From contig NZ_AMZB01000137.1 of NCBI RefSeq assembly GCF_000313755.1, positions 62,001 to 126,000 of the forward strand: a DNA stretch of 64,000 nucleotides. Reading direction: 5' to 3'. Under the pieces are notes generated by a model. That model was not told where the DNA came from. It made no database searches and was given only the letters and a program-made list of their open reading frames with translations. How positions within the stretch are numbered: the first letter of the stretch is position 1; each line of letters opens with the position of its first letter. A program made the position numbers and the translations under genes. Below are positions 40,252 to 49,771 of this stretch, piece by piece. This DNA is from Pseudomonas nitroreducens TX1 (GTDB lineage Bacteria; Pseudomonadota; Gammaproteobacteria; Pseudomonadales; Pseudomonadaceae).

Positions 40252-40968
40252 TCAATCCGGCACTTCCACACTCACGTGGATAGCATCGTGCCGCCAGAAC
40301 TCCAGGTCGCAGTCGATGATGCGCCCGTGCTGGTCGCCGTTGATGCGGGTGATGCGCAGCGCCGGGCTGCCTTCGGCAACGCGCAGCACACTGGCGGCCT
40401 CGCCGTGCAGGGCTGTGGGCACCATGTCGAAGCGCACACGTCCGTAGCGGATGTCGTAGCGACTGGCGTACAGCTCGGTCAGGGAGCAGGTCAGGTCGCT
40501 GTCGAGAATGCCGGGGAAGTACGCCGGGTTGAGGTAGTGCTCGACATAGAGCACCAGCCGGCCGTCTACGCGCCGAACCCGGCGGATCTGGTAGACGCTC
40601 GACAACGCCGGTAGCTCCAGCAGCTCGCAGATGGCCGCACTGGCCGGTATCTGCCGAGCCGACAGCACCTCGGTCGCCGGCACGCGCCCCTGCCCTTGCA
40701 CCATGGCGTGATAGTGGCTGCGCACTAGCGGGTTGTAGAGCAGGCGCGGCGGCGAGACGAACCAGCCACGGCGCTCCTCGCGATAGATCAGCCCCTGGGC
40801 CTCCAGCTGGCCCAGCGCCTCGCGCAGGGTGATCCGGGTGGTGTCGAACAGCTCGCTCAGCTTGCGCTCGGCCGGCAGCTTGCCGCCGGCGCTGAGCAGG
40901 CCGCTGTCGATCTGTTCGATGAGTGCGCGGCAGATCGCCGTGACCGTGGGTAGCGCCGTATCGCGCAT
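40252..40968 (-). CDS. GntR-family regulator, HutC/UTRA type
   Basis: 238 aa. N-terminal winged HTH at about 10-75 (GGKLPAERKLSELFDTTRITLREALGQLEAQGLIYREERRGWFV), then a UTRA ligand domain at about 90-235 (VYQIRRVRRVDGRLVLYVEHYLNPAYFP; LRITRINGDQHGRIIDCDLEFWRHD). It faces the organophosphate-type ABC operon across a 331-bp control region with several candidate operators. PhnF/PhnR regulators of phosphonate genes belong to the same subgroup. Probably a ligand-responsive repressor of itself and the operon. Confidence 0.9.
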   Translation of the reverse strand: MRDTALPTVTAICRALIEQIDSGLLSAGGKLPAERKLSELFDTTRITLREALGQLEAQGLIYREERRGWFVSPPRLLYNPLVRSHYHAMVQGQGRVPATEVLSARQIPASAAICELLELPALSSVYQIRRVRRVDGRLVLYVEHYLNPAYFPGILDSDLTCSLTELYASRYDIRYGRVRFDMVPTALHGEAASVLRVAEGSPALRITRINGDQHGRIIDCDLEFWRHDAIHVSVEVPD

Positions 40969-40982
40969 TCGATTCCCTCTTT

Positions 40983-40994
40983 TGGACTAGTCCA
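40983..40994. promoter_or_regulatory. Palindromic operator candidate near the GntR gene
   Basis: TGGACTAGTCCA is a perfect 12-bp palindrome 15 bp upstream of the GntR start codon. Length and centre resemble HutC/PhnF-type operators (the PhnF site I recall is TGGTATAGACCA), which suggests autoregulation. Confidence 0.45.
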
Positions 40995-41108
40995 GCCCCA
41001 GAACAGGGCATTTCGTTCCCCCAACCGGGTGCGGTCATCCTAGGAAAGCCCCATGACCGTCCCGTGACAAAGCTTTTGCAAGCAGCGCCCATGCCAGATA
41101 ACGACACC

Positions 41109-41151
41109 AGCGTAGACCAGGCGGATCAGGGCGTTGGCCATGGTCTACGCT
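41109..41151. promoter_or_regulatory. Long inverted repeat with TAGACCA half-sites
   Basis: AGCGTAGACCA (41109-41119) and TGGTCTACGCT (41141-41151) are perfect inverted copies with centres 32 bp apart, about three helical turns. Each contains the TAGACCA/TGGTCTA half-site found again at 41255. Could be a GntR-protein site allowing cooperative binding or looping. It can also form an 11-bp hairpin. Confidence 0.45.
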
Positions 41152-41201
41152 TTTCCCCGACGCCCCGCTGGGCACTCAGGGCCGGGCCGGCGCACCTGGG
41201 G

Positions 41202-41235
41202 TTTACATCAAACTGTCATCCGCCCCGCTTAGATT
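41202..41235 (+). promoter_or_regulatory. Pho box and -10 element of the organophosphate-type operon
   Basis: TTTACATCAAACTGTCAT (41202-41219) matches the 18-bp Pho box CTGTCATAAAACTGTCAT at 14 positions; the second half-site CTGTCAT is perfect. A -10-like TAGATT (41230-41235) begins after 10 bp, the spacing at which PhoB-bound boxes replace the -35. There is no other -35 candidate. The predicted start is about 41242, 58 bp before the first gene. This predicts PhoB activation under phosphate starvation. Confidence 0.6.
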
Positions 41236-41249
41236 GGCCTGCGTCTTGC

Positions 41250-41261
41250 TGATCTAGACCA
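41250..41261 (+). promoter_or_regulatory. Operator candidate just downstream of the predicted start site
   Basis: TGATCTAGACCA shares 10 of 12 positions with the PhnF operator TGGTATAGACCA as I recall it, and contains the TAGACCA half-site of the upstream inverted repeat. Its position, about +8 to +20, suits repression by the divergent GntR protein. Confidence 0.45.
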
Positions 41262-41299
41262 CGATTGAAAACACTGAACGTCACCCGAAGGAGCACCGA

Positions 41300-42358
41300 A
41301 TGAAACGCTTGCTTGCTTCACTGCTGGGAACGGCCATTGCCTTGGGCAGCGGCCTCGCCATAGCGGCCAACGCCGATCTGCAATCGCTGGAAGCCGCCGC
41401 CCGCAAGGAAGGCCAGGTCAACAGCGTGGGCATGCCCGACAGCTGGGCGAACTGGAAGGACACCTGGAAGGACCTGGAAAGCAAATACGGCCTCAAGCAC
41501 ATGGACACCGACATGAGCTCGGCCCAGGAGCTGGCCAAGTTCAAGGCCGAGAAGGAAAACGCCAGCGCCGACATCGGCGACGTCGGCGCCGCCTTCGGCC
41601 CCATCGCCCTGCAGATGGACGTCAGCCAGCCCTACAAGCCCAGTACCTGGGACCAAGTCCCGGAATGGGCCAAGGACAAGGACGGCCATTGGGCGTTGGC
41701 CTACACCGGCACCATCGCCTTCATCGTCAACAAGCAACTGGTGAAGGATGTACCGCACAGCTGGGCCGACCTGCTCAAGGGCAAGTACAAGGTCACCATC
41801 GGTGACGTCAGCGCCGCGGCCCAGGCTGTCAACGGCGTGCTGGCGGCAAGCATCGCCAACGGCGGCGACGAGAAGAACATCAAGCCGGGCCTGGAGTTCT
41901 TCGCCCAGCTCGCCAAGCAGGGCCGCCTGTCGCTGACCAACCCGGTGATCAACACCCTGGAGAAGGGTGAGGTGGAGGTCGGCATCGTCTGGGACTTCAA
42001 CGGCCTGAGCTACCGCGACCAGATCGACCCGTCGCGCTTCGAGGTGCTGATCCCCTCCGACGGCTCGGTGATCTCCGGCTACACCACCATCATCAACAAG
42101 TACGCGAAGAACCCGAACGCCGCCAAGCTCGCCCGCGAGTACATCTTCAGCGACGCCGGGCAGATCAACCTGGCCAAGGGCAATGCCCGTCCGATCCGCG
42201 CCGAGCACCTGACCCTGCCGGCCGACGTGAAGGCCAAGCTGCTACCCAACGAGCAGTACGCCAAGGCCCAGCCGATCAAGGACCCCAAGGCCTGGGAGGA
42301 GACCTCCAAGCGTCTGCCGCGCCTGTGGCAGGAAAACGTCATCATCAATATGCAATGA
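41300..42358 (+). CDS. ABC transporter periplasmic substrate-binding protein
   Basis: 352 aa. Signal peptide 1-22 (SLLGTAIALGSGLAIAANA). Family-1/6 extracellular binding protein of the type used for ferric ions, 2-aminoethylphosphonate or organophosphates (EAAARKEGQVNSVGMPDSWANW; VGIVWDFNGLSYRDQ; AREYIFSDAGQINLAKGNARPIR). It is the first gene of the six-gene operon and sits under the Pho box. Phosphonate or phosphoester binding is inferred from the enzymes encoded downstream. Confidence 0.88.
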   Translation: MKRLLASLLGTAIALGSGLAIAANADLQSLEAAARKEGQVNSVGMPDSWANWKDTWKDLESKYGLKHMDTDMSSAQELAKFKAEKENASADIGDVGAAFGPIALQMDVSQPYKPSTWDQVPEWAKDKDGHWALAYTGTIAFIVNKQLVKDVPHSWADLLKGKYKVTIGDVSAAAQAVNGVLAASIANGGDEKNIKPGLEFFAQLAKQGRLSLTNPVINTLEKGEVEVGIVWDFNGLSYRDQIDPSRFEVLIPSDGSVISGYTTIINKYAKNPNAAKLAREYIFSDAGQINLAKGNARPIRAEHLTLPADVKAKLLPNEQYAKAQPIKDPKAWEETSKRLPRLWQENVIINMQ

Positions 42359-42414
42359 CGCCCGCCGCCCCGGCTCGCGCCGGGGCGGCCGCGTTTCAAC
42401 GAAGGCCCCGCTCC

Positions 42415-43224
42415 ATGCGCCACGACGTCATCCTGGTCGTCCTCGACGGCCTCAACTACAGCGTCGCCCACGACTGCATGGGCCACCTGCAGGCCCTGTG
42501 CAACGCCGGCCGCGGCCAGCTCTACCGGCTGGAATGCGAGCTCCCCTCGCTGTCCCGCCCGCTCTACGAATGCATCCTCACGGGAGTGCCGCCCATCGAC
42601 AGCGGCATCCTGCACAACGACGTATCGCGCCTGTCCAACCAGCGCAGCCTGTTCCACTACGCCCGCGATGCCGGTCTGAGCACCGCCGCCGCTGCCTATC
42701 ACTGGGTCAGCGAGCTTTACAACCGCACGCCCTTCGACCCGGCGCGTGACCGTCATACCGATGATGAAACCCTGCCGATCCAGCACGGCCATTTCTACTG
42801 GACCGACCACTACCCCGACTCGCACCTGTTCACCGACGCCGAGTCCCTGCGCCGCCGCCATGCGCCGAACTGCCTGCTGGTGCACCCGATGAACATCGAC
42901 GACGCCGGCCACAAGCACGGCCTGGGCACGCCTCAGTACCGCAACAGCGCGCGCCACGTCGACATCATTCTTTCCGAGTACCTGCACCAGTGGCTGGCCG
43001 CCGGTTATCAGGTGATGGTCACCGCCGACCACGGCATGAACGATGACCGCACCCACGGCGGCATCCTTCCCGAAGAGCGCGAGGTACCGCTGTTCGTCTT
43101 CGGCGAGGCGTTCAGCCTCGATGACCAGGCGCGCCCGCGTCAGGTCGAACTCTGCGGGACGCTGTGCGAAATCCTCGGCGCCGCCCACGACAAACCGGTC
43201 TGTCGGGAGTTGCTCAAGGCATGA
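42415..43224 (+). CDS. Alkaline-phosphatase-superfamily phosphodiesterase-like enzyme
   Basis: 269 aa from ATG 42415. Metal and nucleophile motifs of the NPP/ALP superfamily: D11 in VVLDGLN, probable nucleophile S47 in LPSLSRPLYECILTG, NIDDAGHKHG (Asp, His), TADHGMNDD (Asp, His) and a later THGG. No signal peptide, so it acts in the cytoplasm after import. Expected to cleave a phosphodiester, phosphonoester or similar substrate. The stop overlaps the permease start (ATGA). Confidence 0.82.
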   Translation: MRHDVILVVLDGLNYSVAHDCMGHLQALCNAGRGQLYRLECELPSLSRPLYECILTGVPPIDSGILHNDVSRLSNQRSLFHYARDAGLSTAAAAYHWVSELYNRTPFDPARDRHTDDETLPIQHGHFYWTDHYPDSHLFTDAESLRRRHAPNCLLVHPMNIDDAGHKHGLGTPQYRNSARHVDIILSEYLHQWLAAGYQVMVTADHGMNDDRTHGGILPEEREVPLFVFGEAFSLDDQARPRQVELCGTLCEILGAAHDKPVCRELLKA

Positions 43225-44063
43225 GATCGAATACCGGAAAACTCTTCGCCCTGCTCTGCCTGCTGCCCTTCGCGCTGTTCTTCTTCGCCTTCCAGCTCGC
43301 CCCGCTGCTGTGGGTGATGATCAACAGCGTGCGCACCGGCGATGGCTGGGGGCTGGCCAATTTCAGCGAGATCTTCGGCTCGCCGTTCTACCGGCAGGCG
43401 ATCCGCTACAGCCTGGAAATCTCCGTATGGTCGAGCCTGATCGGGCTGTTCGTCGCCATCCTCGGCAGCTACTCGTTGCGCCAGGTGGACAGCAAGCTGC
43501 GCGACTTCGTGATGGCCTTCGCCAATATGACCAGCAACTTCGCCGGGGTGCCGCTGGCCTTCGCCTTCATCATCATCCTGGGCTTCAACGGCGCGATCAC
43601 GCTGCTGTTGAAGCAGGCGGGGATCATCGAGGACTTCAACCTCTACTCGAAGACTGGCCTGATCATCCTCTACACCTACTTCCAGATTCCCCTCGGCGTC
43701 ATGCTGCTCTACCCGGCCTTCGACGCCCTGCGCGAGGACTGGCGCGAATCCGCCGCTCTCCTGGGGGCCAGCCACTGGGCGTTCTGGCGGCACATCGGCA
43801 TCCCGGTGCTGACGCCGGCCCTGCTGGGCACTTTCGTCATCCTGCTGGCCAACGCGTTGGGCGCCTACGCCACGGTGTACTCGCTGACCACCGGCAACTT
43901 CAACGTGGTGCCGATCCGCATCGCCGGGCTGGTCTCGGGCGACGTGTTCCTCGACCCGAACATGGCCAGTGCGCTGGCGATGGTGCTGGTCGGCCTGATG
44001 AGCATCATTACCCTGGCCCACCAGTGGCTGCTGCGCCGGAGCTACCATGTCGCGAAACGCTAA
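43221..44063 (+). CDS. ABC transporter permease 1
   Basis: 280 aa from ATG 43221. Six predicted helices with the BPD_transp_1 EAA loop ESAALLGASHWAFWRHIGIPVLTPALLG. Pairs with the next permease, which starts 17 bp before its end. Confidence 0.9.
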   Translation: MRSNTGKLFALLCLLPFALFFFAFQLAPLLWVMINSVRTGDGWGLANFSEIFGSPFYRQAIRYSLEISVWSSLIGLFVAILGSYSLRQVDSKLRDFVMAFANMTSNFAGVPLAFAFIIILGFNGAITLLLKQAGIIEDFNLYSKTGLIILYTYFQIPLGVMLLYPAFDALREDWRESAALLGASHWAFWRHIGIPVLTPALLGTFVILLANALGAYATVYSLTTGNFNVVPIRIAGLVSGDVFLDPNMASALAMVLVGLMSIITLAHQWLLRRSYHVAKR

Positions 44064-44835
44064 CCACATTTACCACCGCGTGGTGGTGTACGCGCTGTTC
44101 CTGATCCTGCTGGTGCCGCTGGCCGCCACCCTGCTCTACTCGCTGGCCACCTCGTGGAGCGCCAGCGTGCTGCCGGACGGCCTGACCCTGAGGTGGTTCC
44201 TGACCCTGTGGAGCGACCCGCGCTTCCTCGTTGCCTTCGGCCAGTCACTGCTGGTGTGCTTCGGCTCACTGATCCTCAGCGTTGCGCTGGTGCTGCCGCT
44301 GATGTTCGTCATCCACTACTACTTCCCGCGCCTGGATGCGCTGATGAACGTGCTGATCCTGCTGCCCTTCGCGGTGCCGCCGGTGGTGTCGTCGGTCGGC
44401 CTGCTACAGCTCTACGCCTCGGGCCCGGTGCCCATAGTCGGTACGCCGTGGATCCTGATCGGCTGCTACTTCACCATCGCGCTGCCGTTCATGTACCGGG
44501 CGATCAGCAACAATCTGCAGGCAATCAACCTGCACGACCTGATGGACGCCGCCCACCTGCTCGGCGCCAGCACCTGGCAGGCCGCCCTGCTGGTGGTACT
44601 GCCGAACCTGCGCAAGGGCCTGATGGTGGCGCTGTTCCTGTCCTTCAGCTTCCTCATCGGCGAGTTCGTCTTCGCCAACCTGCTGGTGGGCACCCGCTAC
44701 GAAACGCTGCAGGTGTTCCTCAACAACATGCGCAACAGCAGCGGCCACTACACCAGCGCGGTGGTGGTTTCCTACTTCCTCTTCGTCCTGCTGCTCACCT
44801 GGGCGGCGAACCGTTTAAGCAAGGACAAGGCATGA
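44047..44835 (+). CDS. ABC transporter permease 2
   Basis: 262 aa. Six helices; EAA-type loop MDAAHLLGASTWQAALLVVLPNLRKGL. Overlaps permease 1 by 17 bp and the ATPase start by 4 bp (ATGA). Confidence 0.9.
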   Translation: MSRNANHIYHRVVVYALFLILLVPLAATLLYSLATSWSASVLPDGLTLRWFLTLWSDPRFLVAFGQSLLVCFGSLILSVALVLPLMFVIHYYFPRLDALMNVLILLPFAVPPVVSSVGLLQLYASGPVPIVGTPWILIGCYFTIALPFMYRAISNNLQAINLHDLMDAAHLLGASTWQAALLVVLPNLRKGLMVALFLSFSFLIGEFVFANLLVGTRYETLQVFLNNMRNSSGHYTSAVVVSYFLFVLLLTWAANRLSKDKA

Positions 44836-45827
44836 GCTTCCTCAGCGTCGAGACACTGAACAAGAGCTACGGCACCACCACGGTGTTCCAGGACATCGAT
44901 TTCGCCGCCGAGCGTGGCGAGTTCGTCACCTTGCTCGGCCCCAGCGGCTGCGGCAAGTCCACCCTGCTGCGCTGCATCGCCGGACTCACCGCGGTGGACA
45001 GCGGGCGCATCCTGCTGGACGGCGAGGACATCGTGCCCAAGAGCCCGCAGAAGCGCGGCATCGCCATGGTGTTCCAGAGCTATGCGCTGTTCCCCAACAT
45101 GACCGTGGAACAGAACGTCGCCTTCGGCCTGCGCATGCAGAAAGTGCCGGCGGCGGAGTCCGCCCAGCGCGTGCGCGAGGCGCTGGAGATGGTCGAGCTC
45201 GGCCCGCTGGCAGCGCGCTATCCGCACCAGCTCTCCGGCGGCCAGTGCCAGCGCGTCGCCCTGGCCCGCTCACTGGTCACCCGGCCGCGCCTACTGCTGC
45301 TGGATGAGCCGCTGTCGGCGCTGGACGCACGCATCCGCAAGCACCTGCGCGAGCAGATCCGGCGCATCCAGCAGGAATTGAAACTGACCACGGTGTTCGT
45401 CACCCACGACCAGGAAGAAGCGCTGACGCTGTCCGACCGCATCGTGCTGATGAACGCCGGGCGCATCGTCCAGAGCGGCGACGCCGAGACGCTCTACACC
45501 GCCCCGGAAAACGCCTTCGCCGCCGGCTTCATCGGCAACTACAACCTGCTCGACGCTGCCCAGGCGACCCGACTGCTTGACCGTCCCTTCCGCCAGCAGG
45601 TGGCGATCCGTCCCGAATCCCTGCGCCTGAGCGTGGAGCCGGGCGAAGGCATCCCGGTTCGGGTACTCTCCCACAGCCTGCTGGGCAACGTGATCCGCTA
45701 CCGGGTCGACGCCAGCGGCGTCGAGCTGACCGTGGACGTCCTCAATCGCAGCGCCGAGCGCCTGTACCCGGCCGGCACCCAGCTTGGCCTGCAAGTAGAC
45801 ATTGAAAGCATTCGGGAGGTGGCCTGA
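44832..45827 (+). CDS. ABC transporter ATP-binding protein
   Basis: 331 aa. Walker A GPSGCGKST (36-44), Q-loop VFQSYALFP, signature LSGGQ, Walker B LLLLDEPLSALD, H-loop THDQEEA, and a C-terminal TOBE-like domain (VAIRPESLRLSVEPGEG). This architecture is of the ferric/putrescine/phosphonate-like importers. TGATG overlap with the HAD gene. Confidence 0.93.
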   Translation: MSFLSVETLNKSYGTTTVFQDIDFAAERGEFVTLLGPSGCGKSTLLRCIAGLTAVDSGRILLDGEDIVPKSPQKRGIAMVFQSYALFPNMTVEQNVAFGLRMQKVPAAESAQRVREALEMVELGPLAARYPHQLSGGQCQRVALARSLVTRPRLLLLDEPLSALDARIRKHLREQIRRIQQELKLTTVFVTHDQEEALTLSDRIVLMNAGRIVQSGDAETLYTAPENAFAAGFIGNYNLLDAAQATRLLDRPFRQQVAIRPESLRLSVEPGEGIPVRVLSHSLLGNVIRYRVDASGVELTVDVLNRSAERLYPAGTQLGLQVDIESIREVA

Positions 45828-46480
45828 TGGCCCTGGTGATATTCGACCTCGACGACACCCTGATCGACGGCGACTGCGCGAGCCTGTGGAGCAAGCGCAT
45901 GGCCGATCTGGGCTGGGTCGACGCGGAGTCGTTCCTCAAGCGCGACGCCGAACTGATGGCGCTGTACGCGCAGGGCAAGCTGCCCATGGAGGACTACATG
46001 GCCTTCGCCCTGGAGCCGATGGCCGGGCGCAGCGTGGAAGAAATCGAGCGTGACGTGGAAGCCTTCGTCGAGGACGTGATCGAGCCGCTGATCCATAGCG
46101 ATGCCTGTGCCACCCTCGCCCGCCACCGTGAGGCAGGTGACCGTCCGCTGGTGATCTCGGCCTCCGGCGTGCACCTGGTCAAGCCCATCGCCGAACGGAT
46201 CGGCATCGACGAAGTGCTGGCCATCGACCTGGAAGTGCTGAACGACCACTACACCGGTCGCACCGTGGGCGTGCTCACCTACCGCGAAGGCAAGGTGCTG
46301 CGCCTGCTCGACCTGCTAGAAGGCGACGACAGTTCCCTGGCCGAGGCACATTTCTACTCCGATTCGCGTAACGACCTGCCGCTGCTCAAGCTGGTGGGCA
46401 AGCCGCACGTGGTGAATGCCGACCCGGTGTTGCTGGAGCACGCGCAGAAGATGGGCTGGGACGTCCTCAACTGGAAGTGA
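45827..46480 (+). CDS. HAD-IB family phosphatase
   Basis: 217 aa. Motif I FDLDDTLIDGD (nucleophile D7, acid D9), motif II SASG in LVISASGVHLVKPIAE, motif III K in YREGKV, motif IV YSDSRNDLPLL. Similar to phosphoserine-phosphatase-like HAD-IB enzymes. As last gene of the operon it could remove phosphate from the product of the upstream phosphodiesterase. Confidence 0.9.
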   Translation: MALVIFDLDDTLIDGDCASLWSKRMADLGWVDAESFLKRDAELMALYAQGKLPMEDYMAFALEPMAGRSVEEIERDVEAFVEDVIEPLIHSDACATLARHREAGDRPLVISASGVHLVKPIAERIGIDEVLAIDLEVLNDHYTGRTVGVLTYREGKVLRLLDLLEGDDSSLAEAHFYSDSRNDLPLLKLVGKPHVVNADPVLLEHAQKMGWDVLNWK

Positions 46481-46493
46481 CGTCGCGCAATGG

Positions 46494-46519
46494 AAAAGGG
46501 CCGCGGAAGCGGCCCTTTT
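46494..46519. terminator. Bidirectional terminator
   Basis: AAAAGGGCCGC (46494-46504) and GCGGCCCTTTT (46509-46519) around GGAA; A and T runs serve both strands, between converging operons. Confidence 0.92.
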
Positions 46520-46558
46520 CATCAGCGGTTCTGCAGGCGCGAGCTGGCGCGCCGAGCC

Positions 46559-49742: not shown

Positions 49743-49771
49743 GTGACATCAAACAGTCATGACACTGTCGT
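49743..49771 (+). promoter_or_regulatory. Pho-box-like direct repeats
   Basis: Three half-sites at 11-bp spacing: GTGACAT (49743), CAGTCAT (49754) and CTGTCGT (49765). The last two with spacer match the 18-bp Pho box at 14 positions. No -10 stands at the right distance, and a terminator follows, so function is doubtful. It lies between prc and the EAL gene. Confidence 0.35.

Follow-up and report, generated by a model that had tools for sequence, protein, structure and literature searches.

A probable phosphorus-scavenging operon of the AepSTU type with cytosolic hydrolases in Pseudomonas nitroreducens TX1

Pseudomonas nitroreducens TX1 carries a transporter operon that probably serves to scavenge organic phosphorus. 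It was analysed within a stretch of 64,000 nucleotides (contig NZ_AMZB01000137.1, positions 62,001 to 126,000), hereafter the window, to whose numbering all coordinates refer. The gene for a GntR/UTRA repressor, R (40252-40968, minus strand; PF00392 and PF07702), lies divergently to six plus-strand genes at 41300-46480 and falls just beyond the interval 40969..46480 covered by the original prediction. These six encode a substrate-binding protein, S (41300-42358; SBP_bac_6, with a signal peptide recognised by eye), a hydrolase, A (42415-43224; Phosphodiest, PF01663), two permeases of the BPD_transp_1 family, P1 (43221-44063) and P2 (44047-44835), an ABC ATPase, T (44832-45827; ABC_tran and TOBE_2), and a HAD-IB phosphatase, H (45827-46480); T and H were assigned from Pfam and curated profiles. 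Open reading frames (ORFs) and Pfam thus bear out the gene content first proposed, namely a binding protein, a hydrolase, two permeases, an ATPase, a HAD phosphatase and a UTRA repressor. According to the ORF coordinates, each adjoining pair from A to H overlaps, whereas S and A are separated by 56 base pairs (bp); the longest ORF of A opens at 42325, and the ATG at 42415 was picked from homologues. A hairpin lies between S and A (42357-42395, plus strand; z -2.65), and a terminator-like hairpin follows H (46493-46520, plus strand; z -4.62), the latter not listed by a simple pattern scan.

The operon promoter comprises a Pho box, TTTACATCAAACTGTCAT (41202-41219, plus strand), followed after exactly 10 bp by the -10 element TAGATT (41230-41235, plus strand). 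It agrees with CTGTCATAAAACTGTCAT at 14 of 18 positions, or at 11 of the 14 that were scored, so both the match and the spacing of the original prediction were found again in the sequence. As a single site it is modest: the window holds 11 sites with at most three mismatches, against 3.55 expected. It stands beyond chance because box and spacing are conserved across promoters. The comparison set held 133 upstream regions, three from P. nitroreducens TX1 itself and many closely related; 102 of them carry TANATTGG, an anchor picked after the promoters had been viewed, and 31 do not, which gave 69 distinct 38-mers. A box of at least 10/14 stands at a spacing of 10 to TANATTGG in 64 of the 69 distinct promoters (the other five score 8 or 9), and none of the 69 has one at the eight other spacings of 4-9, 11 and 12; a chance box was therefore rejected.

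R has a Pho box of its own, TTGTCACGGGACGGTCAT (41053-41070, minus strand; an extra register overlaps at 41042-41059), 10 bp before the -10 element TAGGAT (41037-41042, minus strand), and relatives share this layout. Minus-strand boxes scoring at least 12 occur in 32 of 110 distinct upstreams, against 0.04 expected, while the box facing R in the window scores 11. No sigma-70 promoter was found by a simple pattern scan of the locus. The conserved box and its PhoB-type distance from the -10 element point to the operon as a member of the Pho regulon, and Pho control is supported by these conserved sites.

A second kind of site sits just past each promoter: the palindromes TGGACTAGTCCA (40983-40994), in the leader of R, and TGATCTAGACCA (41250-41261), directly downstream of the operon -10 element. 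An operator with at most three mismatches is present in 122 of 133 upstreams, compared with 14.65 expected from single-base shuffles. Its presence follows that of R. Among 79 of the 81 loci L060-L140 (L061, whose upstream was not extracted, and L108, whose upstream is cut, were excluded), it occurs in all 69 that have R and is absent from 8 of the 10 that do not, the exceptions being L083 and L092, which have an operator despite lacking R. Control by the local repressor is thus likewise supported by conserved sites.

As a candidate PhnR (TIGR03337), R scored 289.4 bits, below the cut-off of 296.75, and five orthologues scored 248.1-285.8; it is close to PhnR without qualifying as one. The orthologues of the operon in P. 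aeruginosa are presumably PA3249-PA3255. One study reports that PA3249 binds the amrZ promoter in vitro (PMC8041468), and R may therefore have targets besides the operon. By eye, an inverted repeat of operator-like half-sites, GCGTAGACCA...TGGTCTACGC, can also be read between the two promoters (41110-41150). The TGGTCTACGC half-site recurs in three loci (L137, L021 and L022) whose upstreams show no recognisable TANATTGG-type anchor and no recognisable operator. L137, from P. schmalbachii, a Pseudomonas lineage, lacks R and H yet keeps the transporter and A, and the L021 upstream is identical.

The assignment of A to the alkaline phosphatase superfamily, as an enzyme without an export signal, was confirmed: it matches PF01663, no signal peptide is seen by eye, and a catalytic Asp stands at residue 11. 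The residues expected as metal ligands and nucleophile are in place. The predicted structure is of high confidence (predicted local distance difference test score, pLDDT, 97.8) and shares the ENPP6 fold, and NPP phosphodiesterases are the best matches of A in fold as well as in profile. The phosphatase H is, by synteny, presumably of the PA3255 type. Tried as a histidinol-phosphatase (NF052360), it reached 212.2 bits against a cut-off of 280, with three relatives at 174.3-213.7; PA3255 is called a histidinol-phosphatase homologue in one study (PMC13318431). In one genome, G590, A lies beside a transporter of another kind, a peptide-type ABC transporter (L149), and has H as its direct neighbour (L054).

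The transporter is very probably one already studied, AepSTU of P. putida BIRD-1, and the claim that no characterised system has this composition does not hold; Campylobacter jejuni genes have also been reported as phosphate-regulated. The correspondence follows from gene order and locus spacing, taken from locus numbers and not from sequence: in PPUBIRD1_3890-3895, a GntR gene (3890) would match R, a binding protein of the AepS/PhnD3 type (3891) would match S, and an ATPase (3895) would match T, with three genes between. The two systems also share a PF13343 binding protein and, as predicted for TX1, the BIRD-1 system responds to inorganic phosphate. They differ in that the literature names the transporter and its role with 2-aminoethylphosphonate (2AEP), while the adjoining hydrolases go unmentioned in the passages found.

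Passages of Murphy 2021 (PMC8316502) identify PPUBIRD1_3891 as AepS of an auxiliary 2AEP transporter; there, a triple transporter mutant did not grow on 2AEP as phosphorus source, and a single aepSTU mutant behaved like the wild type. In passages of Lidbury 2016 (PMC5082522), where we take the second figure to be that of the phoBR mutant and ND to mean not detected, log2 values are 3.57 and ND for the GntR protein (3890), 4.72 and ND for the ATPase (3895), and 2.69 and 2.31 for the binding protein phnD3 (3891). PhnD3 was lower yet still detected in the mutant exoproteome, so that R and T of BIRD-1 are reported as PhoBR-dependent and S not clearly so. According to further studies, PA3250 was found in the supernatant of phosphate-starved PAO1 (PMC4899797), and its expression rises with pyocyanin and through PqsE, which adds a further level of control (PMC5112799). 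AepSTU is also mentioned in PMC9311074, and the passages of PMC10132767 describe no phosphoethanolamine ABC transporter of AepSTU-like type.

At E up to 1e-20, 177 of the 298 Pseudomonadaceae genomes sampled have a homologue of A; across the phylum it is 41 of 398 genomes (E up to 1e-15, a count that includes distant homologues of about 33% identity). In several neighbourhoods of these distant homologues the transporters are of dipeptide type, which gave no clear clue to the substrate. Loci were collected with the 5t1p chain as query, whose sequence is that of the C. coli protein in L060. Of 588 confirmed relatives, the 80 best were compared; they are those nearest to the query and not a random sample. 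All 80 contain S, P1, P2 and T, whereas 77 contain A, 68 contain R and 34 contain H, which stands directly after T in 33 of these and apart from it in L101. A Na/Pi-cotransporter-family gene occurs in 39 of the 80. The transporter locus extends to Enterobacterales, Pasteurellaceae and Campylobacter, and in a Helicobacteraceae metagenome-assembled genome it includes a gene of the Campylobacter Phytase-like cluster and a glycerophosphodiesterase. A tie between the importer and cytosolic enzymes of the phosphoester-hydrolase type is supported by this gene content. One plasmid record of P. aeruginosa (L140; NZ_CP042268.1, pHOU1-1) holds the whole block together with minCDE; it looks chromosomal and is perhaps an assembly artefact.

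In Campylobacter, S, A, P1, P2, T and H are ordered alike in C. coli (L060) and C. jejuni 414 (L061), but a Phytase-like gene is added after S, R is missing, and L060 has no operator (L061 was not scanned). Both upstreams carry GTTTCTAAAATGTTTC, a GTTTC-type box that presumably fits the PhosR box. We take the C. jejuni operon to be the Cj0727-Cj0733 region. Cj0728-Cj0734 are reported to be phosphate-regulated (PMC1892558). The P2 gene is in two pieces in C. jejuni 414 (L061:12966-13728) and in one piece in C. coli.

Taking these lines together, we put the probability at about 0.6 that this is an AepSTU-type phosphorus-scavenging operon, which would import aminoalkyl phosphates for cytosolic hydrolysis by A and then by H where present. 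In low phosphate, PhoB would bind the boxes before the operon and before R, and R would bind the TGGNCTAGNCCA-like palindromes just past both promoters until released on arrival of a ligand. Periplasmic S would capture a small organophosphorus molecule, P1, P2 and T would import it, A would cut it as an NPP-type two-metal hydrolase, and H, where present, would strip phosphate from the monoester product. The substrates are most likely aminoalkyl phosphates, for example phosphoethanolamine or glycerophosphoethanolamine, the latter possibly being the imported compound; 2AEP would be a side substrate. A vertebrate pair, ENPP6 and PHOSPHO1, offers a parallel to A and H, by analogy only and with no orthology claimed: PMC7872340 proposes an NPP-type enzyme that feeds a phosphatase with substrate. 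Weighing against the scheme, H is missing from 46 of the 80 loci, which leaves the two steps tentative.

An alternative, which we consider unlikely, is that the operon is no more than a redundant 2AEP importer that supplies PhnWX or C-P (carbon-phosphorus) lyase, with A and H as passengers. Its attraction lies in the AepSTU knockout data, in the closeness of R to PhnR and in the weak likeness of S and the permeases to PhnS, PhnU and PhnV. Salmonella PhnRSTUVWX also has a PhnR-like repressor, a PF13343-type binding protein, two permeases and one ATPase, but has PhnW and PhnX where A and H stand here; as PhnSTUV candidates (TIGR03227, 03258, 03226, 03255), S, T, P1 and P2 fall below the cut-offs. 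PhnX over cut-off occurs in 104 of the 177 A-bearing Pseudomonadaceae genomes, and this co-occurrence, 104 of the 298 sampled, has a Fisher p of 1.8e-15, uncorrected for relatedness. However, 40 of the 177 have neither PhnX over cut-off nor PhnJ, and 39 of these also lack PhnW over cut-off (PhnA and PhnZ were not searched for); G135 is the exception, G253 has a partial PhnW match of 317 bits, and two genomes are incomplete (G097, 85%; G118, 76%). In C. jejuni 414, PhnX and PhnJ likewise gave no match and PhnW none over cut-off, in a search that did not include PhnA or PhnZ. The constancy of A beside the transporter and the wild-type growth of the single aepSTU mutant also speak against passengers and a 2AEP-only role. 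TX1 itself has phnWX and, close by, a gene for a PgtP/GlpT-like transporter that scores below the PgtP and GlpT cut-offs; elsewhere in its genome, PhnS2, PhnU2 and PhnT2 exceed theirs. S and PhnS2 share 24% identity over 252 columns. Because many A hosts lack PhnX, PhnJ and PhnW, and because TX1 has these other genes, 2AEP use looks secondary, and the main substrate is probably a different compound.

It is quite improbable that A alone releases phosphate from a phosphomonoester such as phosphoethanolamine or glycerol 3-phosphate, with H an accessory or a histidinol phosphatase, since A is most like NPP phosphodiesterases in both sequence and fold and the A-H adjacency recurs in the other transporter context of G590. 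Least probable of all, and very doubtful, is that A acts directly on an aminoalkylphosphonate, or on a derivative of one, by splitting its C-P bond in the manner of phosphonoacetate hydrolase. Bacteria such as C. jejuni, which lack PhnWX and C-P lyase, would then have a self-contained phosphonate pathway. In its favour, regulator and transporter belong to the phosphonate type and PhnA structures are among the nearest sequence relatives of the A profile (E 2e-10), but NPP diesterases score higher, A reaches 24.6 bits on the PhnA model TIGR02335 against a cut-off of 407.55, and no PhnA entry is among its 50 best fold rows, an absence that does not exclude likeness.

The identity of the substrate would show what form of organic phosphorus this widespread operon supplies to many soil-, plant- and animal-associated bacteria when phosphate is short, and the description of AepSTU as a 2AEP transporter might then have to be revised.

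Elsewhere in the window, tandem Pho-box-like half-sites lie between prc and an EAL/GGDEF gene (49743-49771), with no -10 element seen 10 bp on. In a comparison made with no shuffle control, a box of 10-12/14 occurs in this gap in all 19 Pseudomonas loci that hold both flanking anchors in order.
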